DNA from: a virus
Reading direction: 5' to 3' (one strand)
Length of the DNA: 20,517 nucleotides
Virus record (IMG/VR): IMGVR_UViG_3300042923_000867
Location: 1 to 20,517 of that record
Program-made: the position numbers and the translations under genes
Notes under the pieces: generated by a model
The model's database searches: none
The model's input: only the letters and a program-made list of their open reading frames with translations
Told to the model about the DNA's origin: nothing
Part shown: positions 1,503 through 20,251 of the stretch, one piece after another
Position numbering within the stretch: position 1 is the stretch's first letter
How the letters are laid out: the number at the start of each line of letters is the position of its first letter

Positions 1503-2380
1503 TAGAACACCTGCCGATAGCGGGGCTTGAAGCGGCCAGTCACGCGCGAGGCGGGAGTGGTGCCCGCGACCTCGATAGAGAGGGTCGACGAGCCGGGCGG
1601 GAGGGTGAAGAAACGGGGTACGTCGTTGAGGGCGGTGTAGCGGCTCGCGCCGGTCGCGTCCTTGACGCTGATGCCCTCGGGCGTCTTGGTGATCGTGATG
1701 ACCTCACCCGCGGCGACCGTCTCCTCGAAGGCCCAGCCCTCGCCGTTGAACGAAGCTTCGACCCGTGTAAACGGTCCGCGGAGCTCCCACTCGACCCACG
1801 CGGGCACCTTGCCGACGTTCTGCACGGTGACCTCGCCGAAGGTGCCCGAGGGCTGGAGGTAGGCGCGGGGGAGGGACTCAAGGAATGGTGTGCCGTCGTC
1901 GACCTGCGCGATGGTGAAGTCGCGGTACTGGGTGTCGGTCCAGTAGGCCGTCTCGGTGTCGAGCGTGAGGAGCGGGCGAGCCGTCCGCTCGCCCAGGGCG
2001 GTCAGGCCCTCGGCCCCGCCCGCGGTGAGGGTGACCTCGACCTCGCGGGCTGAGCCGTCGCTGTAGGACGCGCGGAGCTTGGGGAGCGGCTTGCCGTCCA
2101 CGTAGAAGAGGTGGTCGGCGAGCACGTCGAGCGCCTCCGCCGTCTCGTCGCGCGACGCCGTGAAGATGCCGAGCGCGAGGGTCAGGGTGCGGCCCGACGT
2201 GCGGACGCTTGCCAGTCGGCGACCCTCGCCCGCGGACTCTGTGAAGCTCGCGTACTGCGCGGGGAAGCCGAGGCCCGCCGTGCCGTCCATGACACGGTAG
2301 ACCCCGGCATCCCACGGGGACGACGCGAGCGTGAGCTCAGAGCCCGACGGGCCGATGATCGAGAGGTTGACATCGGCCAT
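1502..2380 (-). CDS. Distal tail / minor tail protein (siphovirus tail component)
   Basis: The gene encodes 292 residues. I chose the ATG at 2380 because GGAGGT lies just upstream and the frame before it is arginine-rich shadow sequence. The start MADVNLSIIGPSG, a beta-rich first half that includes a DGKPLPKLRASY segment, and a second half ending in PRFFTLPPGSSTLSIEV resemble the Dit-type (siphovirus tail component) proteins that sit directly after the tape measure gene. Its role would be to form the hub between tail tube and tip. It starts five bases beyond the tape measure stop, and its own stop overlaps the next gene's GTG by one base, so the three genes are cotranscribed. One copy of the 9-mer GTGTAAACG lies inside it (1765-1773), encoding Pro-Phe-Thr-Arg with an unusual TTT. 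Confidence 0.85.
   Translation of the reverse strand: MADVNLSIIGPSGSELTLASSPWDAGVYRVMDGTAGLGFPAQYASFTESAGEGRRLASVRTSGRTLTLALGIFTASRDETAEALDVLADHLFYVDGKPLPKLRASYSDGSAREVEVTLTAGGAEGLTALGERTARPLLTLDTETAYWTDTQYRDFTIAQVDDGTPFLESLPRAYLQPSGTFGEVTVQNVGKVPAWVEWELRGPFTRVEASFNGEGWAFEETVAAGEVITITKTPEGISVKDATGASRYTALNDVPRFFTLPPGSSTLSIEVAGTTPASRVTGRFKPRYRQVF
1765..1773 (+). promoter_or_regulatory. Dispersed GTGTAAACG motif inside the distal tail gene
   Basis: An exact copy of the 9-mer found in the accessory promoters, here with flanks CCC and GTCC on the plus strand. On the coding strand it uses TTT for Phe, whereas other Phe codons I checked in this gene are TTC. By inference it is a regulator-binding site rather than a coding necessity. 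Confidence 0.5.
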
Positions 2381-4680: not shown

Positions 4681-5285
4681 CTAGGAGGTTGAGAGGCGTT
4701 CGCGCTGAGCGCGGAGACGGTCGGCGAGGCTGGCATGCCGGGCCTTGCCGCTGAGCTTGGGAAGCCAGGGGTGAGGCTTGCCCGTGAAGGCCGTGTAAAC
4801 GTGGCTGAGGAGGTACTCCTCGCGCGTCCATGGGGCGTCGCCGTGCACGATGCGCGTGGTCGCGGCGTCGGGCGGGAGGTGGCGGATGAGGACGGAGACG
4901 CGCCGGAGCGAGAGCTCGCCGCGGTACAGCCCCGCGAGGTCGACGCCGTAGAAGCGCTGGAGGTCGGCTTCTACGGCGTCGGGGTTCTCGCGGAGGAGCG
5001 CGACGAGCGCCGCTAGTTTCCCTGGATGCCCAGGGCCTTCTGGATGTCGGTGACGAGCTCGGCGAGGTCGCCGACCTCGGGCTTGAGGGCCTTGAGGCGC
5101 GCCCAGCCGTCGGCCGCGATGATGAGCTTGAGGAAGGCGACGATCTTGCCCTCCTCGTATGCCTCCAGCGCGTCGAGGGGCCACTTGGCCGTGACGAGGA
5201 TGTCGAGGGACTCGCCGCCGAAGGTGACGGCGACGGTGCCGTCGGTGGCCTCGGAAGCGATGGGGGTCTTGCGTGCGGTTGCCAT
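4681..5285 (-). CDS. Tail assembly chaperone, -1 frameshift fusion product (gpGT-like)
   Basis: This is the long form of the tail assembly chaperone: 90 residues in frame 0 to Asn at 5018-5016, then a shift of -1 at GGGAAAC and 111 more residues to the TAG-type stop at 4681. The extension begins LAALVALLREN and contains LIRHLPPD, WTREEYLLSHV and HPWLPKL, resembling the C-terminal extension of gpGT proteins in other actinophages. The extension has no ribosome site or convincing start codon of its own, which supports expression only by frameshift. In known systems this pair chaperones the tape measure protein during tail assembly. The tape measure gene starts ten bases after this stop. The frameshift is inferred from the slippery site, gene order and frame. 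Confidence 0.88.
4793..4801 (+). promoter_or_regulatory. Dispersed GTGTAAACG motif in the chaperone extension
   Basis: An exact 9-mer copy with flanks CC and TGGC. The coding strand reads Val-Tyr-Thr as GTT TAC ACG; GTT is rare in these genes, which mostly use GTC and GTG. Confidence 0.5.
5013..5285 (-). CDS. Tail assembly chaperone, short form (gpG-like)
   Basis: The gene encodes 90 residues from ATG at 5285 to TAG at 5013, reading MATARKTPIASEA at the start and LGIQGN at the end. The body, with AKWPLDALEAYEEGKIVAFLKLI, fits the small acidic first chaperone found between the tail tube and tape measure genes of siphoviruses. Its last codons overlap the slippery heptamer GGGAAAC, so ordinary termination gives this short form and slippage gives the fusion. 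It starts after a strong hairpin that follows the tail tube gene, so its transcription is probably lower than that of the tube protein. Confidence 0.9.
   Translation of the reverse strand: MATARKTPIASEATDGTVAVTFGGESLDILVTAKWPLDALEAYEEGKIVAFLKLIIAADGWARLKALKPEVGDLAELVTDIQKALGIQGN
5016..5022 (-). promoter_or_regulatory. Programmed -1 ribosomal frameshift site GGGAAAC
   Basis: The coding strand reads CAG GGA AAC TAG. The heptamer G GGA AAC fits the X XXY YYZ rule, and the frame 0 stop follows it immediately. Slipping back one base gives CTA GCG GCG and opens 111 codons. The position between the two chaperone frames matches lambda G/GT-type frameshifting. Confidence 0.9.
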
Positions 5286-5948: not shown

Positions 5949-6365
5949 TCAGAGGTGACGCGGCGCGGGTGCCGCGGTGACCCCGAAGGCGACGAGGTAG
6001 TCGCCCGTGTCGGGGTCAGGGGTGGGTGAGGTTGGCCGGGTGCGCGCGGTAATCGACCGGATGCCGCTCGGCCACGGCCCGGCGAGGATGAGGCCCTCGA
6101 CGAGCGCGGCGAGCTCAGCGCACTTGCCCTCGTCGGAGTGCCAGACGTTTACACGGAGGTCGTCGAGGGCGAGGAGGTTGGAGCCCCGCGTGCCGCCGTC
6201 CGACGAGACGCGCACGTAGGGGAGTGGGCGGGCCTCGTCGGCCCCGGGGAGGGGCTTGGTGCCGACGGTCACGCCCTCGCCGAGCTCGACGAGCGGGAGG
6301 TGCTGGCGGAGGTGGTCACGCGCCAGGACGGGCGTGTAGGGGTAGAGGATGGGGGCGTTGGTCAC
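5949..6365 (-). CDS. Tail terminator protein (probable)
   Basis: The gene encodes 138 residues from a GTG at 6365 whose G is shared with the TAG stop of the gene before it, a TAGTG overlap that suggests coupled translation. The sequence has YPYTPVLARDHLRQHLP near the start, PLPYVRVSSDGGT, and LRVNVWHSDEGKCAELAALVEGLIL, a beta-strand then helix pattern seen in lambda gpU-like tail terminators. The gene directly before the tail tube gene is normally the terminator, which caps the tube and stops its growth. The assignment rests on position, size and pattern. Confidence 0.72.
   Translation of the reverse strand: MTNAPILYPYTPVLARDHLRQHLPLVELGEGVTVGTKPLPGADEARPLPYVRVSSDGGTRGSNLLALDDLRVNVWHSDEGKCAELAALVEGLILAGPWPSGIRSITARTRPTSPTPDPDTGDYLVAFGVTAAPAPRHL
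6146..6154 (-). promoter_or_regulatory. Dispersed GTGTAAACG motif in the tail terminator gene
   Basis: The motif reads CGTTTACAC on the plus strand, so its orientation is opposite to the other intragenic copies. In frame it codes Arg-Val-Asn-Val with GTA, a rare Val codon here. Confidence 0.5.
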
Positions 6366-7487: not shown

Positions 7488-7526
7488 CCCCGAGGAGGGC
7501 CGCGTGTAAACGGCCCTCACTCGGGG
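7488..7526 (-). terminator. Hairpin after the capsid gene, with the 9-mer motif in its loop
   Basis: CCCCGAGGAGGGCCG pairs with CGGCCCTCACTCGGGG with one bulged base, and the eight-base loop is CGTGTAAA. It follows the capsid stop by about 12 bases and is followed on the coding strand by CTTCCCC. It resembles the hairpin after the tail tube gene. It probably limits read-through from the capsid into the connector genes. Confidence 0.65.
7504..7512 (+). promoter_or_regulatory. GTGTAAACG motif in the capsid hairpin loop
   Basis: An exact 9-mer copy that fills the loop and the first two paired bases of the hairpin at 7488-7526. A protein bound here would sit at the end of the capsid transcript. 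Confidence 0.55.
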
Positions 7527-9462: not shown

Positions 9463-11613
9463 CTACACGAGGGCGAGGGTGCCGAGGATGAAGGCGCGGA
9501 AGTCCGCGTCGTCCCCGAGGTCGCCCTTGCGCTCGTACCACGGCGAGGAGTCGAAGAGCGACTCCGCGCCCATCGTGAAGACCTCCCACGAGCTATCTGC
9601 GCCGACGCCGCCGCGCTGGCGGTACGTCTTGCCGATGTAGTTGTCGGCCCACTTGTCGGGGTGCGCGAGCTCGGAGCCCATGCCGATGTTCGCGCCGTAG
9701 ATGTCGAAGACAGGAGCGAGCTCGGTCTTGCCGTTGGCGTTCGTGACCTTGTCAGAGCGGCTGTAGTGGTAGGCCCACTCCAGCCCGCGCACGCCCGGAA
9801 CCTTCTCCATGGAGTGCCCGAGCTCGTGCGTGGCGATGCGGCCCATGGGGCCAGTACGCGCCCATGTGCCGGTGTCCTCGCTGAGCGCGATGACCTTGCC
9901 GCCCTGGTTGTAGCCGCGCTTGACCTTCTTGAGCTCCACGTCGGGGAAGAGCTCAGCGACGGTGTCATTCCACGCCGTCGGGTAGTTGCGGAACGCCTCG
10001 TTGACCGCGTCGACTAGCTGGCCGCGCGTCTTGTCGTACTTGGGACGCTTGCCGCCGCCCATCGGGCGCACCTCGTCGAGGAGCTTGCGCGTCTCGGCGC
10101 GCTTCTCCTTGTAGAGGGCGAGGCGCTTGTCGGGCACGGTGTCTCGGAGCTCGCGGAGGCGGCGCTCGGCGGCCTCGTAGAGCTCCTCGGCGGCCTCGCT
10201 GTAGTTCTCGATCATGGCCGTCGCCGTCGCCTCGACGGTGCGGCGTGCGTCCGCGACCTCGTCGTCGAGCGCGGCGATGCGCGCCTCGATGGGGCGGATG
10301 CGGCGCGTGAGCTCCTCGTCGAGGGCCTTGCCCGCCGCGAGGACGCCGTCTAGGGCCTTCTGCGTGTCGCTCCCGAGCTCGCCGCGGTCGTCGAGGTCGT
10401 CGGCGCGGCGCGCGAAGAGCTCAGGGCGAGTGTCGCGGAGCTCCTTGGCGAGGTTGTCGATCTTGGCGATGTGCGCGTTGTGCTCGTCGACCATCTTTCG
10501 GATCGCGTCGCTACGGACGACGAGGCTGGCGCGCACCATTTCCGGGGTCCACGTGTTGAAGACGATGTGCCCCTCGCGGCGGAGCTCGGCCACGATGGCG
10601 GGCGGGACATCGTCCCACTCGACGGCCCCGTCGAGCGACTCGATCCACCCGTCATTCTGGCGGAGGCCGTCCTCGTAGATCATGCGCCGAGACACGATGC
10701 TCGTGCGGTCGCCGATGCGTAGCTGAGCCTCAGCCTCTTTGAGGGAGACGATGAAGCGGTCGGCCTCGTTGGTCAGGGTGGCCGTCTTGACGCCGATGGT
10801 GGCACGGTCCTCAGGGAGGGCCTTGGCGGCCTCCTGTACCGTCCTGAGCCACGCGGGCACGGCGGGGATGGCCGGGTCGGTGAGCGGGCTCTCGTAGAGC
10901 TTGCGGAGGGCCTCGGCGAACGTCTCGCCGCTCGTGCCGTCCTTGGTCGAGTCCCACGCCTTGCGGAAGACCCGAGCCTCAGGGCTCCACCCGCCGTCAG
11001 CGTCGCCGGGGAGCACGAGCCGGGCGTTGCATCCACAGCGGTCGTGCGCGTTGAAGTCGACGCCCGCGTCGGTGTAAACGGGGCCGCGGCTGACGAGCAT
11101 GGCACAGAAGGCGCACGGCTTACCGTCGCTCACGCGTGCCCACCTCTCGACGGCCCGCGAGCTCGTCACGCGCTTACGCGAGGCGTTGATGATCTGACGC
11201 TTGGACGAGCCGAGCATGTTGGACTTGGCCGTTGCGAGTGCGATGGCCGGGTCGCCGCCTCGCTTGGCGATGTACTCGGCGCGGGCGAGGCTCTTGGCGG
11301 TCGACGCCGAGAGTGACGCCTTGATCGCGCCGTCGGCGAGCCGCGTGTTGGCCGTCTGAGGGACGGTCACGGCGGGCTTGCCTGCGTGACGGAGCACGGT
11401 GTTGATGTAGGCGTCGGCGGTGCGCTCGCCCTTGACGCGGCCAGCGTTCACGTAGGGCACGGCGGCCTCGCGGAAGCGGGCGAAGCTACGCGTGAGGTCG
11501 GCCGGGTCGATGGTGTCGTCCCACAGCCGGGAGAGGGCCGCCTGCACGGCGGCGGCATCCTTGACTTGCGTCGCCATGTGTGCGCGTGCAAGTGCGAGGC
11601 TGGCGTCGGCCAT
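9463..11613 (-). CDS. MuF-type head protein fused to a HELGH metalloprotease-like domain
   Basis: The gene encodes 716 residues from ATG at 11613, AGGAG seven bases upstream, 21 bases after the portal stop. Residues 1-210 form a MuF-like head domain with a probable zinc site: CAFC at 167-170, H190, and CGC at 193-195. Residues about 380-520 are coiled coil rich. From about 540 a separate domain follows, with THELGHSMEKV holding HExxH at 596-600 and a SSWEVFTMGAE segment whose Glu677 or Glu684 could be the third zinc ligand. Plain MuF proteins are much shorter, so this is a fusion. MuF proteins are packaged in small numbers, and C-terminal effector domains on them are known as MuF toxins. The metalloprotease could act during head maturation or inside the infected cell. 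Confidence 0.85.
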   Translation of the reverse strand: MADASLALARAHMATQVKDAAAVQAALSRLWDDTIDPADLTRSFARFREAAVPYVNAGRVKGERTADAYINTVLRHAGKPAVTVPQTANTRLADGAIKASLSASTAKSLARAEYIAKRGGDPAIALATAKSNMLGSSKRQIINASRKRVTSSRAVERWARVSDGKPCAFCAMLVSRGPVYTDAGVDFNAHDRCGCNARLVLPGDADGGWSPEARVFRKAWDSTKDGTSGETFAEALRKLYESPLTDPAIPAVPAWLRTVQEAAKALPEDRATIGVKTATLTNEADRFIVSLKEAEAQLRIGDRTSIVSRRMIYEDGLRQNDGWIESLDGAVEWDDVPPAIVAELRREGHIVFNTWTPEMVRASLVVRSDAIRKMVDEHNAHIAKIDNLAKELRDTRPELFARRADDLDDRGELGSDTQKALDGVLAAGKALDEELTRRIRPIEARIAALDDEVADARRTVEATATAMIENYSEAAEELYEAAERRLRELRDTVPDKRLALYKEKRAETRKLLDEVRPMGGGKRPKYDKTRGQLVDAVNEAFRNYPTAWNDTVAELFPDVELKKVKRGYNQGGKVIALSEDTGTWARTGPMGRIATHELGHSMEKVPGVRGLEWAYHYSRSDKVTNANGKTELAPVFDIYGANIGMGSELAHPDKWADNYIGKTYRQRGGVGADSSWEVFTMGAESLFDSSPWYERKGDLGDDADFRAFILGTLALV
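11072..11080 (+). promoter_or_regulatory. Dispersed GTGTAAACG motif in the MuF gene
   Basis: An exact 9-mer copy with flanks TCG and GGGC. The coding strand reads Val-Tyr-Thr (residues 179-181) with GTT and ACC. Confidence 0.5.
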
Positions 11614-11634: not shown

Positions 11635-13002
11635 TTAGACGGCGACGGGCGGCGGCGTAGCGGGGGCTACGGGTGCGACCGGGGCCGTCTGTCGCTGGAG
11701 CTCCGCGGTGAGCGCCTCCAGCGGGTCGGCCTTGGCGAGCTCGCGCCAACGCTGGAGCTTCGAGTCGGTGATGCCGGGCACGTCCTCCCACAGCGCCTCA
11801 GCGGGCACCTCAAGGAGGGTGGCGAGCTTGCCGAGCGCGTCGACCTTGGCGAGCATGTCCTCGCCCGACGTGTCGCGCCAACGCACCTCAGCCTCAGCCT
11901 CGGGCTCGGGCTGGCCCGCGGCGCGGGCGGCGAGCTTGAAGACGAGCTCCCACGACTCGCCGAAGAGGAGCTTGAAGGCGTCCGTCTTGCGGTTCGTCTT
12001 GTGGCGACGCGCGAGGAGGGCCTCGCCCGTGACGTTCGTCATGTTGCCCGCGAAGAGGTCGGCGTCGATCTGCGCGGCGGCGGCCAGGGTGGCGACGGCG
12101 CTCTTGTACTCGACCTGATGACCGTTGATGTCGGTCTGCGAGAAGTCGCCGAAGCGCGCCTCGCCGTCCTCGCTGACCCACAGCCGGTCGACCGCCGCGT
12201 CGAAGGGCTCGACGGGGTTACCCTCGTCGTCCTCGGGGATGGCGAGGCCGGTAGCCCAGCGCTGGCGGAAGCTCGCGTACTGGATCGCCATGGCGATAGC
12301 GAAGGCGATGTCGTTGATGCGGTCCTGATGCGACTTGAAGGGGCGCACGAGGCCGATGGCCTCGCCGTCTAGGCGGTCGCGGAAGCGGACGAAGGGCACG
12401 ACGCCGAGGCCGTGCGACTCGGCCTTCTCGAAGCGCATGTCGCCGCCCTCAGCGGGGCGGGAGAAGAGCGTGCGCTCGGTATCCGTGTAAACGGCCACGC
12501 GCTGGCGCTTCTGGTCGCCCTCCTTGAACGTCCCGAGGAGCTCGAAGCCGAGCTCGGGGAAGTCGTCGTCGGGGTCGGCGTACCATGCCGCCGAGCGGAG
12601 CGGTGAGAGGGGCTTGATGACCGGGCGGGCCTTCTCCTTGCCGGGCAGGACGAGCACGTATGACGCGCCGTACTCCAGCGCCCCACGGTGCGCGATGTCC
12701 TGGCGAGCGTCGAGGCCGTTGTCCTGCCAGTAGCGCCACGCGGCGACGTTGTCGTCGGCCTTGGGGCGACGGTAGCCGTCGACCGTGAGGCCCTTGGCGA
12801 ACTCGTCGACCACGAGGGGGAGCCAGTTGGGGCGGCTCTTCTCGGCCAGGGCCTTGTACTCGGCCTTGGCCTGCCGGGGCATGTAGGGAAGGTCGTGGTC
12901 GCCGCGGAGGTAGCGGCGGGGGAGGCCGAGGCGCTCGTCGTCCTTGAGGTCGTGCCGGAGCTTGTCGTCGAGCTCGGAGGCGAGCTTGGTGGAGACTGCC
13001 AT
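11635..13002 (-). CDS. Portal protein (SPP1 gp6-like)
   Basis: The gene encodes 455 residues from ATG at 13002 with AAAGG six bases upstream. It lies between the large terminase and the MuF gene, the standard portal position. The N-terminus has YLRGDHDLPYMP and SRPNWLPLVVDEFAKGLTVDGYR, a segment shared by many actinophage portals. The middle has GALEYGASYVLVLPG and VPFVRFRDRL, and a helix with HQDRINDIAFAIAMAIQYASF and QRWATGLA fits the portal stem. The C-terminus is a proline/alanine tail. Twelve copies would form the DNA channel at the head vertex and bind the terminase. Confidence 0.92.
   Translation of the reverse strand: MAVSTKLASELDDKLRHDLKDDERLGLPRRYLRGDHDLPYMPRQAKAEYKALAEKSRPNWLPLVVDEFAKGLTVDGYRRPKADDNVAAWRYWQDNGLDARQDIAHRGALEYGASYVLVLPGKEKARPVIKPLSPLRSAAWYADPDDDFPELGFELLGTFKEGDQKRQRVAVYTDTERTLFSRPAEGGDMRFEKAESHGLGVVPFVRFRDRLDGEAIGLVRPFKSHQDRINDIAFAIAMAIQYASFRQRWATGLAIPEDDEGNPVEPFDAAVDRLWVSEDGEARFGDFSQTDINGHQVEYKSAVATLAAAAQIDADLFAGNMTNVTGEALLARRHKTNRKTDAFKLLFGESWELVFKLAARAAGQPEPEAEAEVRWRDTSGEDMLAKVDALGKLATLLEVPAEALWEDVPGITDSKLQRWRELAKADPLEALTAELQRQTAPVAPVAPATPPPVAV
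12485..12493 (+). promoter_or_regulatory. Dispersed GTGTAAACG motif in the portal gene
   Basis: An exact 9-mer copy with flanks TCC and GCCA. The coding strand reads Val-Tyr-Thr as GTT TAC ACG inside VAVYTDTERT. Confidence 0.5.
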
Positions 13003-15870: not shown

Positions 15871-15946
15871 TGGCTGGCACGGCAGGGGTCGAACCTGCGC
15901 GCTTCCGAGTAACAGTCGGGTGCTCTGCCTACTGAGCTACATGCCA
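15871..15946 (-). tRNA. tRNA-Asn (anticodon GTT)
   Basis: The 76 bases fold as a full cloverleaf. The acceptor stem TGGCATG pairs with CGTGCCA with one G-T wobble, followed by discriminator G and an encoded CCA. The D stem is GCTC/GAGC. The anticodon loop is CTGTTAC with anticodon GTT, and its stem has one C-A mismatch at the outer pair (27-43). The T arm is GCAGG-TTCGACC-CCTGC. A phage-encoded tRNA in an accessory region can replace host tRNA cleaved by defence nucleases or help codon supply. Asn codons in these genes are mostly AAC, which GTT reads. Confidence 0.95.
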
Positions 15947-16527: not shown

Positions 16528-16719
16528 TCAGCCCGCGATGATGTTGATGCCCGAGGTGCGGATGTACGCGCCGCCGAAGTGGGCGATGACCTCGTCAGTC
16601 TCGGCGAGCGTCAGGATGGCGGCGGGGAAGCTGTAGGTCTTGGCGAAGGGGTCGCGGGTGATGCTGACCTCAAGGCCGTCGGCGAAGGTGTAGGACTCGG
16701 GGGCGGTGGTGTTCGTCAT
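16528..16719 (-). CDS. Hypothetical protein of leaderless cassette 1
   Basis: The gene encodes 63 residues, starting MTNTTAPESYTFADGLEV and ending YIRTSGINIIAG. It is acidic, looks beta-rich, and belongs to no family I recognise. I chose the ATG at 16719 because the -10 box TACGCT ends six bases upstream, which would place transcription start at the ATG itself. A longer in-frame GTG start reads through the promoter and is rejected. It is a single-gene unit between the hairpins at 16775-16801 and 16488-16514. Confidence 0.82.
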   Translation of the reverse strand: MTNTTAPESYTFADGLEVSITRDPFAKTYSFPAAILTLAETDEVIAHFGGAYIRTSGINIIAG

Positions 16720-16754
16720 GGTTACAGCGTACACGCGTTTACACACTCACGCAA
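16719..16754 (-). promoter_or_regulatory. Leaderless cassette promoter 1
   Basis: The -35 TTGCGT (16749-16754), a 17-base spacer and the -10 TACGCT (16726-16731) are followed by six bases and the ATG. The spacer contains GTGTAAACG (16736-16744) continuing into CGTGTAC, so a regulator bound there would cover the core promoter. Confidence 0.85.
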
Positions 16755-16774
16755 GTCGGCGAGCGCAAAGCGAA

Positions 16775-16801
16775 GGCCCCCTAGCGCGATGCCAGGGGGC
16801 C
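16775..16801 (-). terminator. Terminator of cassette gene 16817-17071
   Basis: GGCCCCCTAGC pairs with GCCAGGGGGCC with one mismatch. The coding strand continues CTTCGCTTTGCG, so the T tail is weak compared with its relatives. Confidence 0.7.
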
Positions 16802-16816
16802 GGGTGGGCGAGGGGC

Positions 16817-17071
16817 TTACCAGCCGCGGACGAGCTCCTCGACGCGGCGGCGGGATGCCTTGAGGCCCTGGACGAAGACCCCGCCGAGGGAGACGTGCGC
16901 GATGCGGGAGCCGAGGTAGGCCCACTCGACGAGGCCGTCGGGGAAGCCGAGGATGATGACATCCGAGCGGGTCGCGCCGACGTAGTAGGTGACCGTCTCG
17001 CCGACGGTGAAAGTGCGCTCGGAGCCGTCGGTGAGGTAGAGGGCCTTGGTGGCGGGGGTGGTGTTCGTCAT
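16817..17071 (-). CDS. Hypothetical protein of leaderless cassette 2
   Basis: The gene encodes 84 residues beginning MTNTTPATKALYLTDGSE and continuing FTVGETVTYYVGATRSDVIIL, a beta-barrel-like pattern, with a basic helical end KASRRRVEELVRGW. No family is recognised. The ATG at 17071 lies seven bases after the -10 TACTGT, so the mRNA is probably leaderless. The N-terminus shares MTNTT with its two neighbours, although the rest of the proteins differ, so the shared part reflects the reused start region rather than homology of the products. Confidence 0.82.
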   Translation of the reverse strand: MTNTTPATKALYLTDGSERTFTVGETVTYYVGATRSDVIILGFPDGLVEWAYLGSRIAHVSLGGVFVQGLKASRRRVEELVRGW

Positions 17072-17107
17072 GTGTCCCACAGTACACGCGTTTACACACT
17101 CGCGCAA
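17071..17107 (-). promoter_or_regulatory. Leaderless cassette promoter 2
   Basis: -35 TTGCGC (17102-17107), a 17-base spacer with GTGTAAACG at 17089-17097, and -10 TACTGT (17079-17084), then seven bases to the ATG. An ACACGGCGTGT palindrome lies just upstream, near 17118-17128. Confidence 0.85.
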
Positions 17108-17144
17108 GTCGACGCACACACGGCGTGTCGCGGGGCAAAGGGAA

Positions 17145-17175
17145 GGCCCCCGGGCTCGGGATGAGCTCGGGGGCC
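17145..17175 (-). terminator. Terminator of cassette gene 17188-17541
   Basis: A 13-bp stem GGCCCCCGGGCTC/GAGCTCGGGGGCC with one G-T wobble and a GGGAT loop. CCTTCCCTTTG follows on the coding strand. Confidence 0.82.
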
Positions 17176-17187
17176 AGGAGAGAGGGG

Positions 17188-17541
17188 TCAGAGCATGCGC
17201 GGGTTGACCGCCGTGGGGCCGTCGTAGTCGAGGGCCAGGAGGAGGCGCGAGAGCTCGAAGCAATCGACGTTAGCGGCCTCCCAGTGCGTCACGACGGAGT
17301 AGTCGCGGCCCGCGTAGGTCACGGCGATGTCGTAGAGGTCGAGCGCGTTGAGGGTCACCTCGACCTGCATGACGCGGGCGGCGGTGCCGCGCTTGCCGCT
17401 CTTGGTGAAGGGCAGGATGCGGGCGGCGAAGCGGAGGCCCGACTCGGTGGCGATGAGCTTGTGAGCGCCGAGGGCCATGAGGACGCCGGTCGTGATCTGG
17501 TCGCGGATGATGAGGGCCGGGGTTGCGGTGGTGTTCGTCAT
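17188..17541 (-). CDS. Hypothetical protein of leaderless cassette 3
   Basis: The gene encodes 117 residues: MTNTTATPALIIRDQITTG, then RFAARILPFTKSGKRGTAARV, VEVTLNALDLYDIAVTYAGRD and a C-terminal helix CFELSRLLLALDYDG. It looks like a small alpha/beta domain, but no family is recognised. ATG 17541 is six bases from the -10 TACTAT, the closest to consensus of the five promoters, so this may be the strongest unit. It is bounded by hairpins at 17614-17638 and 17145-17175. Confidence 0.84.
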   Translation of the reverse strand: MTNTTATPALIIRDQITTGVLMALGAHKLIATESGLRFAARILPFTKSGKRGTAARVMQVEVTLNALDLYDIAVTYAGRDYSVVTHWEAANVDCFELSRLLLALDYDGPTAVNPRML

Positions 17542-17576
17542 GCTTCGATAGTACACGCGTTTACACGCTCACACAA
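17541..17576 (-). promoter_or_regulatory. Leaderless cassette promoter 3
   Basis: -35 TTGTGT (17571-17576), a 17-base spacer with GTGTAAACG at 17558-17566, and -10 TACTAT (17548-17553), then six bases to the ATG. Confidence 0.86.
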
Positions 17577-17613
17577 CTCGGCTCACGCGTCGGCGTGTCG
17601 TGGGCACGAGAAA

Positions 17614-17638
17614 GCCCCCGGCCATCTGGACCGGGGGC
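17614..17638 (-). terminator. Terminator of the four-gene operon
   Basis: GCCCCCGG and CCGGGGGC pair across a nine-base loop. The coding strand continues TTTCTCGTGCCC. It ends the unit that starts at 19098. Confidence 0.82.
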
Positions 17639-17687
17639 GGTGCGCTCGCCGCGAGTGCGGCTTTGACGAAGTGAGCGCGGGTCTAGC

Positions 17688-18008
17688 TTACGTGAGGCGG
17701 TGGACGAGCTCCTCCACTAGGTCGCGGGCGAGGTGCTCAGCGGCGAAGCGGGCCGCGCTGGCGCGCTTAGGGTCGCCCATGGGGGCTACCTTGTCCACGA
17801 CCGGCGCGAGGAGCGGAGCGAGCTTCTGAGCCGTAGCGACGGAGAGCGCCGAGGGCCTGGCCTCACTCTCCGCCGCGATGGCGTCGTCGACCTCGGCGAG
17901 CTCGCGGAGGATGCCCGCCCGCGGCGCGCTACCCGGGAGGCCGACGTAGCCGTTGAGCTCGATGACGAGCTCGGAGCGGCGGCGCTTGAGTGCGTAGAGC
18001 TCAGTCAT
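17688..18008 (-). CDS. Hypothetical helical protein, last gene of the four-gene operon
   Basis: The gene encodes 106 residues from ATG at 18008, which overlaps the upstream stop in ATGACTGA; translation is probably coupled. MTELYALKRRRSELVIEL and ILRELAEVDDAIAAESEAR give a short coiled coil, and the C-terminal half, ARFAAEHLARDLVEELVHRL, is another amphipathic helix. It has no family I recognise. A longer in-frame start (18038) lies within the upstream gene and lacks support. Confidence 0.78.
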   Translation of the reverse strand: MTELYALKRRRSELVIELNGYVGLPGSAPRAGILRELAEVDDAIAAESEARPSALSVATAQKLAPLLAPVVDKVAPMGDPKRASAARFAAEHLARDLVEELVHRLT

Positions 18009-18432
18009 CGACGGCCTCCCACTCGCCCGCGGGGACACGGTAGGAGCCCGAGCGCATGAGCACCCGGTCGCCGAGGCTCCTGTCGGCGCGCTGGCGGGCG
18101 TGCACGAGGTCGCGGGCCTGGCGGATGAGCGGCCCCTCCTCGTCGGCCTCCTGGACGTACTCCGTCGCGTAGTCGAGCTCGGGGAGGTCGCCGTAGAGGA
18201 AGCGCGCGAGCGCGTCGAGGAGGTCGCGGGCCTCGCCGCGGTTCATGTCCAGCGTGGTCGAGGTCTGCGCGCCGAGGGCGAACTCGACGACGACGCCCGC
18301 GGAGTTGGGCGAGTCCTCAGGGCCGGGCGCGCGGACGGCCACGGGGCGGCGCTGAGTGGCGCGCTTGAGGCGGAGCGTCTCGGTGAGCGCGGCGATGTCG
18401 GCGGCGGCCTTGACGGGGTTGGGCTTGCTCAT
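18001..18432 (-). CDS. Hypothetical protein, third gene of the four-gene operon
   Basis: The gene encodes 143 residues from ATG at 18432 with AAAGGA about eight bases upstream, the same ribosome site as the gene before it. The start MSKPNPVKAAADIAALTETL is helical, the middle GVVVEFALGAQTSTTLDMN is beta, and GEARDLLDALARFLYGDLPELDY is a helix. The C-terminus has a second helix, QARDLVHARQRADRSLGDR. No enzymatic motif is visible and no family is recognised. Confidence 0.78.
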   Translation of the reverse strand: MSKPNPVKAAADIAALTETLRLKRATQRRPVAVRAPGPEDSPNSAGVVVEFALGAQTSTTLDMNRGEARDLLDALARFLYGDLPELDYATEYVQEADEEGPLIRQARDLVHARQRADRSLGDRVLMRSGSYRVPAGEWEAVDD

Positions 18433-18465
18433 GGTGTGATCCTTTCGAGGGGGAGGGGAGGGGGC

Positions 18466-18885
18466 TCAGGGGCGGCGGAAGTGGTCGGCGCTCTTCCACA
18501 CGGGGCTAGCGCCGTCGCCGAGGTTGGCGGCGTAGGAGTCGGGCTTGACGACGAAGTAGAAGGGGCTCCCGTCGGGGCTCACCTGGACGCCGATGACGGC
18601 GTACTCCTGGCCGCCGCGCTCGACGATGACGTCGCCGGGGATGCGCCCGTAGAGCTTGTCCTCGGCGCTGTTGGCGAGAATGTGCGCCACGCCGAAGCCG
18701 GTCTTGGCGAGCTCTACCTCGCGGCGGAGGTTCTGGAGCGCGAGCTCCTGGCGGTGGAGCTCGGCCTCGACCTCGTGGAGGTAAGCCTCGCGGGCGTCGG
18801 CGGCGGCGGCGCGTCCCTCGGGGTCGAGGCTGAGGAGGTGGCGGGGGCTCGCGTTGACGATGGCGGCGGGGGCGGTGCGGGTCAT
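18466..18885 (-). CDS. Hypothetical coiled-coil protein, second gene of the four-gene operon
   Basis: The gene encodes 139 residues from ATG at 18885 with AAAGGA upstream. Residues about 23-65 (GRAAAADAREAYLHEVEAEL, then LQNLRREVELAKTG) form a long charged helix or coiled coil. The second half, GRIPGDVIVERGGQEYAVIGV and SPFYFVVKPDSYAANLG, is beta-rich. It might be a small oligomeric DNA- or protein-binding factor, but no motif allows a firm call. A 9-bp hairpin (18905-18929) separates it from the first gene of the operon. Confidence 0.8.
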   Translation of the reverse strand: MTRTAPAAIVNASPRHLLSLDPEGRAAAADAREAYLHEVEAELHRQELALQNLRREVELAKTGFGVAHILANSAEDKLYGRIPGDVIVERGGQEYAVIGVQVSPDGSPFYFVVKPDSYAANLGDGASPVWKSADHFRRP

Positions 18886-18904
18886 GTCGTGATCCTTTCA
18901 GAGG

Positions 18905-18929
18905 GGGAGGGGCCGGTCGAGCCCCTCCC
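18905..18929 (-). other. Hairpin between first and second genes of the operon
   Basis: GGGAGGGGC and GCCCCTCCC pair perfectly across CGGTCGA. There is no T-rich tail, so it may be a weak attenuator or an mRNA-processing site. Confidence 0.5.
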
Positions 18930-18939
18930 GAGGGGGTTG

Positions 18940-19098
18940 TCAGCGGGTCAAGTTGTCCAGAGCGGCCTGCCACTCGGCGCGCGAGCGGCGCTGACGACGG
19001 ACCATGTCCTTGAGGCCGAGCTTCTCCGCCTTGGCGATGTTCTCGGTCGCCGAGGCGATGCAGTAGCGGAGGTTCTCGATGGCTTCTTCGTTCGTCAT
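18940..19098 (-). CDS. Small helical protein, leaderless first gene of the four-gene operon
   Basis: The gene encodes 52 residues: MTNEEAIENLRYCIASATEN, then KAEKLGLKDMVRRQRRSRAEW and a short helical end. It is nearly all helix, with a basic RRQRRSR patch. ATG 19098 is six bases from the -10 TACGCT. The other three genes of the unit have their own AAAGGA or overlapping starts, so only this first gene depends on a leaderless start. Function is unknown. Confidence 0.8.
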   Translation of the reverse strand: MTNEEAIENLRYCIASATENIAKAEKLGLKDMVRRQRRSRAEWQAALDNLTR

Positions 19099-19133
19099 AC
19101 CTACAGCGTACACGCGTTTACACACTCACACAA
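19098..19133 (-). promoter_or_regulatory. Leaderless cassette promoter 4 (operon)
   Basis: -35 TTGTGT (19128-19133), a 17-base spacer with GTGTAAACG at 19115-19123, and -10 TACGCT (19105-19110), then six bases to the ATG. An ACACGGCGTGT palindrome lies upstream, near 19145-19155. Confidence 0.86.
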
Positions 19134-19169
19134 CTCCACTCACACACGGCGTGTCGCCGGGACGAGAAA

Positions 19170-19199
19170 GGCCCCCACCCTCCGAAGAGGGCAGGGGCC
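19170..19199 (-). terminator. Terminator of cassette gene 19214-19846, UUCG loop
   Basis: GGCCCCCACCCTC and GAGGGCAGGGGCC pair with a two-base internal loop. On the transcript the loop is C-UUCG-G, the very stable tetraloop, and TTTCTCGTCC follows. Confidence 0.85.
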
Positions 19200-19213
19200 G
19201 AGGTGGGTGAGGG

Positions 19214-19846
19214 TCAGGGGCGCTTGTGCTTGCGCACCTTGCCCGAGAAGCGGGCGGTGAGGCCGACGTTCTGGCCGCACGTGGCGCACGTCCCGCGGGG
19301 GCTGTAGTGCGCCCGCTCGCGGCCCGTGAGGTGCTCCTTGTCGAACGCCTGGCCCGAGCCGGGGCAGATGTCATCCGCGACCTTGGCCGTGGTGAGCTCG
19401 ACGGGGGCAGTCGGGAAGCAGATGGTGCACAGGGTCGCGCCGTGCTCGGCGACGGCCTCGGCCTCGGTCAGGCCCGAGACATCCGGGAGCCAGCCCACGC
19501 GGGTCGTCGGGCGGAAGCTAGGGCAGTGCTGAGTGTTGTGGATGTGCTGGACGAGGTAGAAGCGGGTCCAGCCCTCGTAGAGCTCGGCGTCGAGGGCGAT
19601 GGCCGCCTCGCGGAGGGGCTTGGCCTCGGCGAAGATGAGCTCAGCCTCGGCGCGCTGGTGAGCGATGCGAGCCTCGATGCGGTCGCGCATGGCGGGGCTG
19701 TACTGGCGGAGGGCCTTCTCGCTCTTGGCGGCGGCCTTCACAAGGGCGAGGCCCTTGTCGTTGACCTCGTGGTAGGAGGTCCACGCGGCGGCGATGCGGG
19801 TGTCGGCGTTGCGGGCCTTGGCAATTTCAGCGGTGCGGTTCGTCAT
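19214..19846 (-). CDS. Zinc-ribbon-like protein of leaderless cassette 5
   Basis: The gene encodes 210 residues from ATG at 19846, seven bases after the -10 TACTGT. Residues 1-90 are helical and basic (MTNRTAEIAKARNADTRIAA, then RDRIEARIAHQRAEAEL). Residues 100-145 have HIHNTQHCPSF and LCTICFPTAPVEL, giving Cys108, Cys140 and Cys143 with nearby His101/103. A second set, CPGSGQ at 161-166 and CATCGQ at 187-191, looks like a zinc ribbon. The C-terminus is basic, SGKVRKHKRP. Proteins with a CTICFPTAPVE-like motif are common unknowns in actinophages. I infer a nucleic-acid- or protein-binding zinc protein; no catalytic site is visible. Confidence 0.82.
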   Translation of the reverse strand: MTNRTAEIAKARNADTRIAAAWTSYHEVNDKGLALVKAAAKSEKALRQYSPAMRDRIEARIAHQRAEAELIFAEAKPLREAAIALDAELYEGWTRFYLVQHIHNTQHCPSFRPTTRVGWLPDVSGLTEAEAVAEHGATLCTICFPTAPVELTTAKVADDICPGSGQAFDKEHLTGRERAHYSPRGTCATCGQNVGLTARFSGKVRKHKRP

Positions 19847-19882
19847 GTGTCCCACAGTACACGCGTTTACACGCTCGCGCAA
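19846..19882 (-). promoter_or_regulatory. Leaderless cassette promoter 5
   Basis: -35 TTGCGC (19877-19882), a 17-base spacer with GTGTAAACG at 19864-19872, and -10 TACTGT (19854-19859), then seven bases to the ATG. Confidence 0.86.
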
Positions 19883-19917
19883 ATCGCGTACACGCTCGGC
19901 GTGTCGCGCGTGTCGAC

Positions 19918-19988: not shown

Positions 19989-20192
19989 TCACTCCGAGCG
20001 CTTGCGCCGCTTGCGGACGACGCGACGGCCAGCGCTCACGAAGGGCGCGAGGGCCGCGTCGAGCGCCTCGCGGTTGGCCGCCGAGAGGTCGAGCTCGTAG
20101 GCGGTGCCGTTGAGCGAGAGGGTGACCTCCCGCACGTCGTCGCCCTCGGTGCCGTCAAGGTCGTCGACTAGAACGATGATGCTTTTCTTCAT
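19989..20192 (-). CDS. Lsr2-like protein with only the N-terminal dimerisation domain
   Basis: The gene encodes 67 residues from ATG at 20192 (MKKSIIVLVDDLDG). Residues 8-59, with VDDLDGTEGDDVREVTLSLN, TAYELDLSAANREALDAAL and PFVSAGRRV, match the N-terminal half of actinobacterial Lsr2, the H-NS-like xenogeneic silencer. The usual C-terminal DNA-binding domain with its RGR AT-hook is absent; the protein stops after a basic RRVVRKRRKRSE tail. Full Lsr2 is about 110 residues. Known biology: the N-terminal domain drives dimers and oligomers of Lsr2-family silencers. Inference: this protein could form mixed oligomers with host Lsr2 and weaken silencing. A TACGCT -10 lies six bases before the ATG, so the start is probably leaderless, but there is no good -35. 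Confidence 0.9.
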   Translation of the reverse strand: MKKSIIVLVDDLDGTEGDDVREVTLSLNGTAYELDLSAANREALDAALAPFVSAGRRVVRKRRKRSE

Positions 20193-20242: not shown

Positions 20243-20251
20243 CGTTTACAC
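20243..20251 (-). promoter_or_regulatory. GTGTAAACG motif between rtcB and its terminator
   Basis: An exact 9-mer copy (CGTTTACAC on the plus strand) in the short gap after the rtcB stop. It is not part of a recognisable promoter, which fits a stoperator-like position at a transcript end. Confidence 0.55.

Follow-up and report, generated by a model that had tools for sequence, protein, structure and literature searches.

The closest described counterparts of the elements reported here are the repressor-stoperator system of cluster A mycobacteriophages (L5, TipsytheTRex; PMC9283540, PMC6550527) and the stoperators of R4-like Streptomyces phages (PMC10276819). Partial likenesses are found in the Start-Associated Sequences (SAS/ESAS) of cluster K and Microbacterium cluster EF phages, where a repeated element adjoins the starts of small genes (PMC3203893, PMC7302621), in the leaderless genes of Mycobacterium smegmatis, whose ATG lies at the expected +1 with no Shine-Dalgarno (SD) sequence (PMC7148126), and in ImmA/ImmR of ICEBs1, in which, as far as it is described where cited in PMC9030533, a metalloprotease of the element is linked to control of that same element. 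The stretch analyzed here (the window) is the linear IMG/VR virus record IMGVR_UViG_3300042923_000867, a genome fragment of 20,517 bases without a SprT-like gene, whose nearest described relatives are the phages Honk, Cen1621, and Zeta1847 (genus Zetavirus, Microbacterium cluster EH), followed by other Microbacterium phages. EH phages carry serine integrases and have no identified repressor (PMC7302621), the Arthrobacter cluster AZ phage Powerpuff forms immune lysogens and has no known repressor (PMC8758107), and a catalogue of repeats in Microbacterium phages gives none for EH. The window contains five leaderless promoters, each enclosing the 8-mer GTTTACAC; these are probably, albeit far from certainly, promoters of the host sigma type whose GTTTACAC copies serve as operators of a stoperator-like phage silencing network, with a SprT-like protein as its regulator or a partner of that regulator.

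As with stoperators, a short site recurs tens of times (14–33 copies in EH and AZ phages, 39 in Streptomyces phage UNTPL), both at promoters and dispersed, in temperate actinophages, and one orientation is in excess in Zetavirus and AZ phages. Unlike stoperators, the site is 8 bp long and takes a palindromic form, GTTTAAAC, in relatives (GTTTACAC itself is asymmetric); its operators face either way, and the linked gene encodes a SprT-like metalloprotease that also occurs in phages without an integrase. No repressor combining a helix-turn-helix (HTH) with a Stoperator domain tracked the site in the comparison of EH and AZ phages, which included no homology search with 7R6R or 7TZ1. Whereas SAS lie at the ribosome site, the block conserved here consists of a core promoter plus a candidate operator and holds no SD-like sequence; the SAS-bearing cluster K mycobacteriophages reportedly encode SprT-related proteins as well (PMC3203893). 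In contrast to the leaderless genes of M. smegmatis, the present promoters are near-identical, with conserved codons 2–3 and an embedded candidate operator, and in contrast to ImmA/ImmR, so far as that citing source describes it, the protein has a SprT-like fold and a zinc ribbon, the sites are dispersed, and no ImmR-like HTH partner was found. A literature search returned nothing relevant on GTTTACAC or GTTTAAAC as a phage motif or on SprT as a phage repressor.

All five promoters lie on the minus strand and share TTGYGY, a spacer of exactly 17 nt, and TACNNT (−35 variants TTGCGC, TTGTGT, and TTGCGT; −10 variants TACTGT, TACGCT, and TACTAT). ATG ACG AAC follows the −10 after 6 nt in three cases and 7 nt in two, which places the A of the ATG (16719, 17071, 17541, 19098, and 19846) at the usual +1, and GTTTACAC is embedded in each promoter opposite to transcription:

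16726–16754, minus strand: promoter P1, −35 TTGCGT at 16754–16749, spacer 17, −10 TACGCT at 16731–16726
16737–16744, plus strand: GTTTACAC in P1, candidate operator
17079–17107, minus strand: promoter P2, TTGCGC-17-TACTGT
17090–17097, plus strand: GTTTACAC in P2, candidate operator
17548–17576, minus strand: promoter P3, TTGTGT-17-TACTAT
17559–17566, plus strand: GTTTACAC in P3, candidate operator
19105–19133, minus strand: promoter P4, TTGTGT-17-TACGCT
19116–19123, plus strand: GTTTACAC in P4, candidate operator
19854–19882, minus strand: promoter P5, TTGCGC-17-TACTGT
19865–19872, plus strand: GTTTACAC in P5, candidate operator

The 16-mer GTGTAAACGCGTGTAC is invariant across the five; exact copies of the 13-mer core occur in the window at these promoters only, and at up to 3 mismatches the core has 14 window matches against 3.4 expected. 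No Shine-Dalgarno sequence was found 5' of the five ATGs, unlike the downstream genes starting at 18885 and 18432, which have a ribosome site (AAAGGATC; the ordinary AAAGGA type). A sigma70 scan of the window with the E. coli consensus recovered none of the five, because their hexamers are too distant from that consensus. We infer leaderless expression from these promoters, a conclusion that their sequence supports well; the first-pass annotation had read the hexamers, the gap, the missing ribosome site, and the common opening codons in the same way. The possible GTG and TTG starts within the five promoters lie upstream of the expected transcription start, as do those that GenBank places inside such promoters (e.g., Honk 78, Zeta1847 64 and 71). 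A further element, CGACACGCCG(N)nGTGTG, is conserved in relatives and at four of the five promoters, about 20–35 bp ahead of the −35:

about 17105–17135: upstream element
about 17575–17605: upstream element
about 19130–19160: upstream element
about 19880–19910: upstream element

Across a survey set of five genomes (the window, its sister contig IMGVR 3300042923_000650, Honk, Cen1621, and Zeta1847), the unit of promoter and ATGACGAAC recurs throughout the Zetavirus genomes, with 38 such promoters and an ATG 6–7 nt past the −10 in 37 of them. Codon 2 is ACG in 35 of the 37 genuine starts (ACG makes up 44% of Thr codons in Honk; p ~1e-10), and ACGAAC is present at 32 starts. The same promoter in Cen1621 also drives genes opening with ATG CAG and ATG AAC, while a leadered class (Honk, L014, at 35620, 46879, and 48608, and record L002) has a ribosome site and a conserved leader of ~55 nt, ATCGCAAGGGCA...GTGACAACTACACAGAGA, and a hairpin-leader class (Honk 36036 and 40484; Cen1621, L016, 36791) has a conserved GTGAGGCCGGATGGTCCGGCCCAC. 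Since some promoters feed leaders or other codons, the promoter does not require these first codons, and the earlier proposal that they belong to the initiation signal stands only insofar as codon 2 is conserved at the DNA level; the ACGAAC codons are Zetavirus-specific and may reflect either an initiation signal or the copying of cassettes. In view of these Cen1621 and Honk genes, the modular platform for host-takeover proteins that the first-pass annotation suggested is not supported as the main point. The constant element is GTTTACAC, which is movable, occurs outside promoters as well, and persists without ATGACGAAC in other EH and AZ phages.

That word stood out in an unbiased count of over-represented words per genome, run on 18 records with a reversed-word control. 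With an expectation of ~0.01–0.17 copies per genome, GTTTACAC/GTTTACACG ranks first in Honk (33 copies), Cen1621 (28), Zeta1847 (22), Floof (16), Caron (17), Gretchen (14), and Powerpuff (27), so that the EH and AZ phages span 14–33; it is also the leading 8-mer in GardenState, SuMoo, Barnstormer, Elezi, DrManhattan, Emotion, and Reedo, and the reversed word has 0 copies in 18/18 records. Its position at promoters varies: it may lie in the spacer but face the other way, with two base differences, while Zeta1847 and Caron have it on the −10 (TAAACT) and Powerpuff has it at the start site. This shifting among spacer, −10, and start site indicates an element separable from the promoter. As a separate observation, an excess of the palindrome CTTGCGCAAG was seen upstream of several genes (L017–L020), where it overlaps the −35 of EH and AZ promoters, and the gene for gp46, a sigma70 region 4-like protein, is preceded by TTGCG...CGCAAG inverted repeats.

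The site is tied near-exclusively to one phage gene. A SprT-like gene is present in 14/14 site-positive and 0/3 site-negative phages of the EH/AZ comparison and was the sole family among those tested to behave so; the site-free syntenic relatives (Curtobacterium phages Kalimba and Moss, and phage phiMiGM15) have the integrase and the gp46 protein. The Honk gp50 HTH protein, a DUF2637-HTH protein, and Lsr2 were rejected as binders, none being present in all site-positive phages. The SprT-like gene's own promoter carries the site in almost all site-positive EH and AZ phages, the sister contig has the gene with GTTTACAC 26 nt ahead of its start, and in 20 of 29 diverse site-positive contigs the site precedes the gene by no more than 120 bp.

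The pairing extends to phages selected in other ways. Among phages picked solely by a SprT homologue (n = 4), Streptomyces phage UNTPL has 39 sites, which are spread over genes, promoters, stop codons, and SD-ATG gaps, and phage 4A has 13. A SprT alignment was used to select 80 viral contigs, with GC contents of 32 to 73%; their leading word is usually GTTTACAC or GTTTAAAC, with close variants (CTTTACAG or ATTTAAAT, for example) in a few. In L097, GTTTAAAC occupies terminator hairpin loops, and in L121 it lies in the SD-ATG interval of most small genes. When 80 contigs were instead chosen by DNA polymerase I, a first pass gave 24 with both SprT and site, 3 with the site only, 0 with SprT only, and 53 with neither, and a whole-record search reassigned one exception (25, 2, 0, and 53, respectively; Fisher 1e-18, a statistic that ignores relatedness). 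In a marine control, 80 T7-like contigs were selected on their primase (identity of 92% or more): the two that encode SprT carry 17 and 13 copies of GTTTAAAC, 77 have 0–3, and one short fragment has 11 with no SprT in view; a scan with dCMP deaminase as the anchor for control contigs gave no relatives. Other strongly repeated words, CACCTACT, TTCCTAGG, and CTACTAGT, were seen in SprT-less actinophage contigs (L256–L292) and are perhaps other dispersed-operator systems.

Outside its promoters, the window holds seven further copies of GTTTACAC, in genes and at gene boundaries:

12485–12492, minus strand: in the portal gene, conserved with Honk
11072–11079, minus strand: in the MuF gene, kept in Honk, Cen1621, and Zeta1847
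7504–7511, minus strand: in a short intergenic stretch ahead of head-tail genes
4793–4800, minus strand: in the tail assembly chaperone gene, kept in Honk, Cen1621, and Zeta1847
1765–1772, minus strand: in a minor tail gene, conserved with Honk and Cen1621
6147–6154, plus strand: opposite to transcription
20244–20251, plus strand: beside a terminator, opposite to transcription, counterpart at Honk 44282

Between Zetaviruses, in-gene sites are kept as GTT TAC ACG, or as the word in another frame, in the genes for the portal, MuF, tail chaperone, minor tail, and gp53 proteins, whereas relatives that share these Val-Tyr residues encode them as GTC TAC. Of Val codons, 1.8% are GTT; the large Honk genes contain 12 GTT codons, of which 5 fall within a site. 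Such retention reflects a constraint on DNA rather than on protein. Non-promoter sites run 37:9 in one orientation in Zetavirus, 5:2 in the window, and 65:28 in AZ phages; strict stoperator-type orientation was rejected as a general rule, for it is not kept in all clades. Three Arthrobacter-group genomes have their sites clustered in prophages (15/15 in one orientation in G032:C67), and the background of the host chromosome is only a few per Mb.

The SprT-like protein (~200 aa; phrog_6361, unknown function) has an HExxH motif and a downstream His that are invariant in 34 homologues (H90, E91, H94, and H103), together with a C-terminal Cys-rich zinc ribbon. Its Pfam SprT-like match is near the cut-off and above it for Cen1621 only; an AlphaFold (AF2) model is confident except in the linker (mean predicted local distance difference test score 86), and sequence and fold searches of the PDB gave no good match, the weak hits being small metallopeptidases. 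These properties would suit a protease that binds DNA itself or one that acts together with a separate DNA binder.

Because the site overlaps core promoters, is dispersed, and accompanies a phage gene that itself carries the operator, a silencing network is the simplest reading. A phage-encoded regulator would bind GTTTACAC; at promoters it would cover the spacer, −10, or start site and thereby block initiation, and at dispersed sites it might impede RNA polymerase, as cluster A stoperators do. The regulator would most likely be the SprT-like metalloprotease/zinc-ribbon protein or a complex with it, its gene usually carrying the same operator. In the temperate EH and AZ phages, which have serine integrases and whose integrated prophages carry the sites, the network would silence the prophage and confer homoimmunity. 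Probable cis sites, the five window promoters among them, and a single-gene candidate for the trans factor are now supplied for EH and AZ phages, in which neither a repressor nor its binding site had been identified. Because gene and site also occur together in Streptomyces and marine T7-like phages, a widespread module for regulation or genome maintenance is suggested, and the pairing gives a clue to what phage SprT-like proteins do. In a bolder version, put forward tentatively and more doubtful than credible at present, the SprT-like zinc-ribbon protease would itself be a sequence-specific master regulator that reads GTTTA(C/A)AC, silences promoters, leaderless or not, and is switched by its own proteolysis. 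If so, one SprT master regulator, of a class unlike known repressors, would span unrelated Microbacterium, Arthrobacter, Streptomyces, and marine T7-like phages and would be the repressor of EH and AZ phages.

Several observations weigh against a SprT-centered silencing network. Microbacterium phages Armstrong and Celaena have SprT and 0 copies of GTTTACAC; the leading repeated word of Armstrong and Eden (L100 and L104), both SprT-positive without GTTTACAC, is TCTATTGTA, possibly a shifted site. Two site-positive contigs, G002 and G003, lack SprT; they have just 8–10 sites each, those read lie outside promoters, and the contigs look as if the site-SprT system had been lost. Site orientation is mixed in EH phages outside Zetavirus, an HTH is not evident in the SprT-like protein, and the invariant HExxH suggests catalysis and not only DNA binding. 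Finally, an integrase is present in just 7 of 27 SprT-positive records, mostly outside EH/AZ, and lysogeny therefore cannot be the universal role; beyond EH/AZ, the module may act in the control of lytic growth or in maintaining the genome.

An alternative is that a separate phage protein binds GTTTACAC and is degraded by an operator-controlled SprT protease, which would make the latter an anti-repressor akin to the ImmA/ImmR arrangement. The invariant HExxH...GH active site, the operator of the SprT gene itself, and the two SprT-less site-positive contigs, which are compatible with a separate binder, all suit such a scheme; yet no second gene family tested followed the site in the EH/AZ comparison, and from clade to clade the binding proteins would need to be unrelated or highly diverged. 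We regard this alternative as unlikely, though a serious contender. Somewhat less likely still is a DNA-maintenance motif (Chi-like, or serving replication, segregation, or genome protection) that works with SprT-like proteins and is merely tolerated by promoters. Sites in terminator loops, SD-ATG gaps, stop codons, and genes, and the lack of an integrase in many SprT-positive phages, speak for such a motif; the exact placement on core elements of most EH and AZ promoters and upstream of SprT speaks against it.

Explanations that dispense with SprT fare worse. Near-identical promoters, ATG ACG AAC, and terminators separating several cassettes are what would be expected if the leaderless promoters were strong and constitutive, had spread as copied cassettes, used the first codons to signal translation, and had no regulator; this is improbable, given that the 8-mer is also found beyond promoters, is maintained within coding sequence, and follows a single gene. 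A phage sigma-like protein of the Honk gp46 family could read the promoters, being present in all EH, AZ, and Curtobacterium relatives, but the promoter hexamers look like the host primary-sigma type, and the recognition helix of phiMiGM15, FSRSKVQRIRSEG, nearly equals that of Caron, FSRSKVQRIRTEG, in a phage without GTTTACAC; gp46 was rejected as the site binder on the latter ground, and its role as promoter reader is very improbable. Scarcely any weight is given to a host-encoded regulator that binds GTTTACAC: phages of two host genera share the word, but the host background is sparse, the sites cluster in prophages, and the word is absent from Curtobacterium phages and appears with SprT in Streptomyces and marine phages.

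The genes served by the five promoters, and the terminators that set several cassettes apart, are as follows:

16528–16719, minus strand: P1 gene, leaderless, 63 aa, MTNTTAPES...; no Pfam or PHROG match
16775–16801, minus strand: intrinsic terminator between the P2 gene and P1
16817–17071, minus strand: P2 gene, leaderless, 84 aa
17188–17541, minus strand: P3 gene, leaderless, 117 aa; phrog_28795, unknown function
17614–17638, minus strand: intrinsic terminator closing the P4 operon
18885–18466, 18432–18001, and 18017–17688, minus strand: genes 2–4 of the P4 operon
18940–19098, minus strand: P4 gene, leaderless, 52 aa; first in a four-gene operon
19170–19199, minus strand: intrinsic terminator 3' of the P5 gene
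19214–19846, minus strand: P5 gene, leaderless, 210 aa; phrog_2433, unknown function

The intrinsic terminators are GC-rich. The description of these units as single-gene cassettes needs amending for the start at 19098, which heads a four-gene operon, and the five products, described earlier as otherwise unrelated, had no Pfam match above threshold, but four of the five begin with MTN(T/R)T. A small protein encoded nearby (19989–20192, minus strand) consists solely of an Lsr2 dimerization domain (Pfam 9e-20) and is a possible dominant-negative antagonist of host Lsr2 silencing. A tRNA-Asn gene (15871–15946, minus strand) lies at the right end of the genome, a position that it also has in several relatives. 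The gene order of the window (1–20517), namely the end of rtcB, the cassettes, the tRNA, HNH, and then packaging and structural genes, joins both ends of a Honk-like genome, and the contig therefore appears to have been read across joined cos ends.

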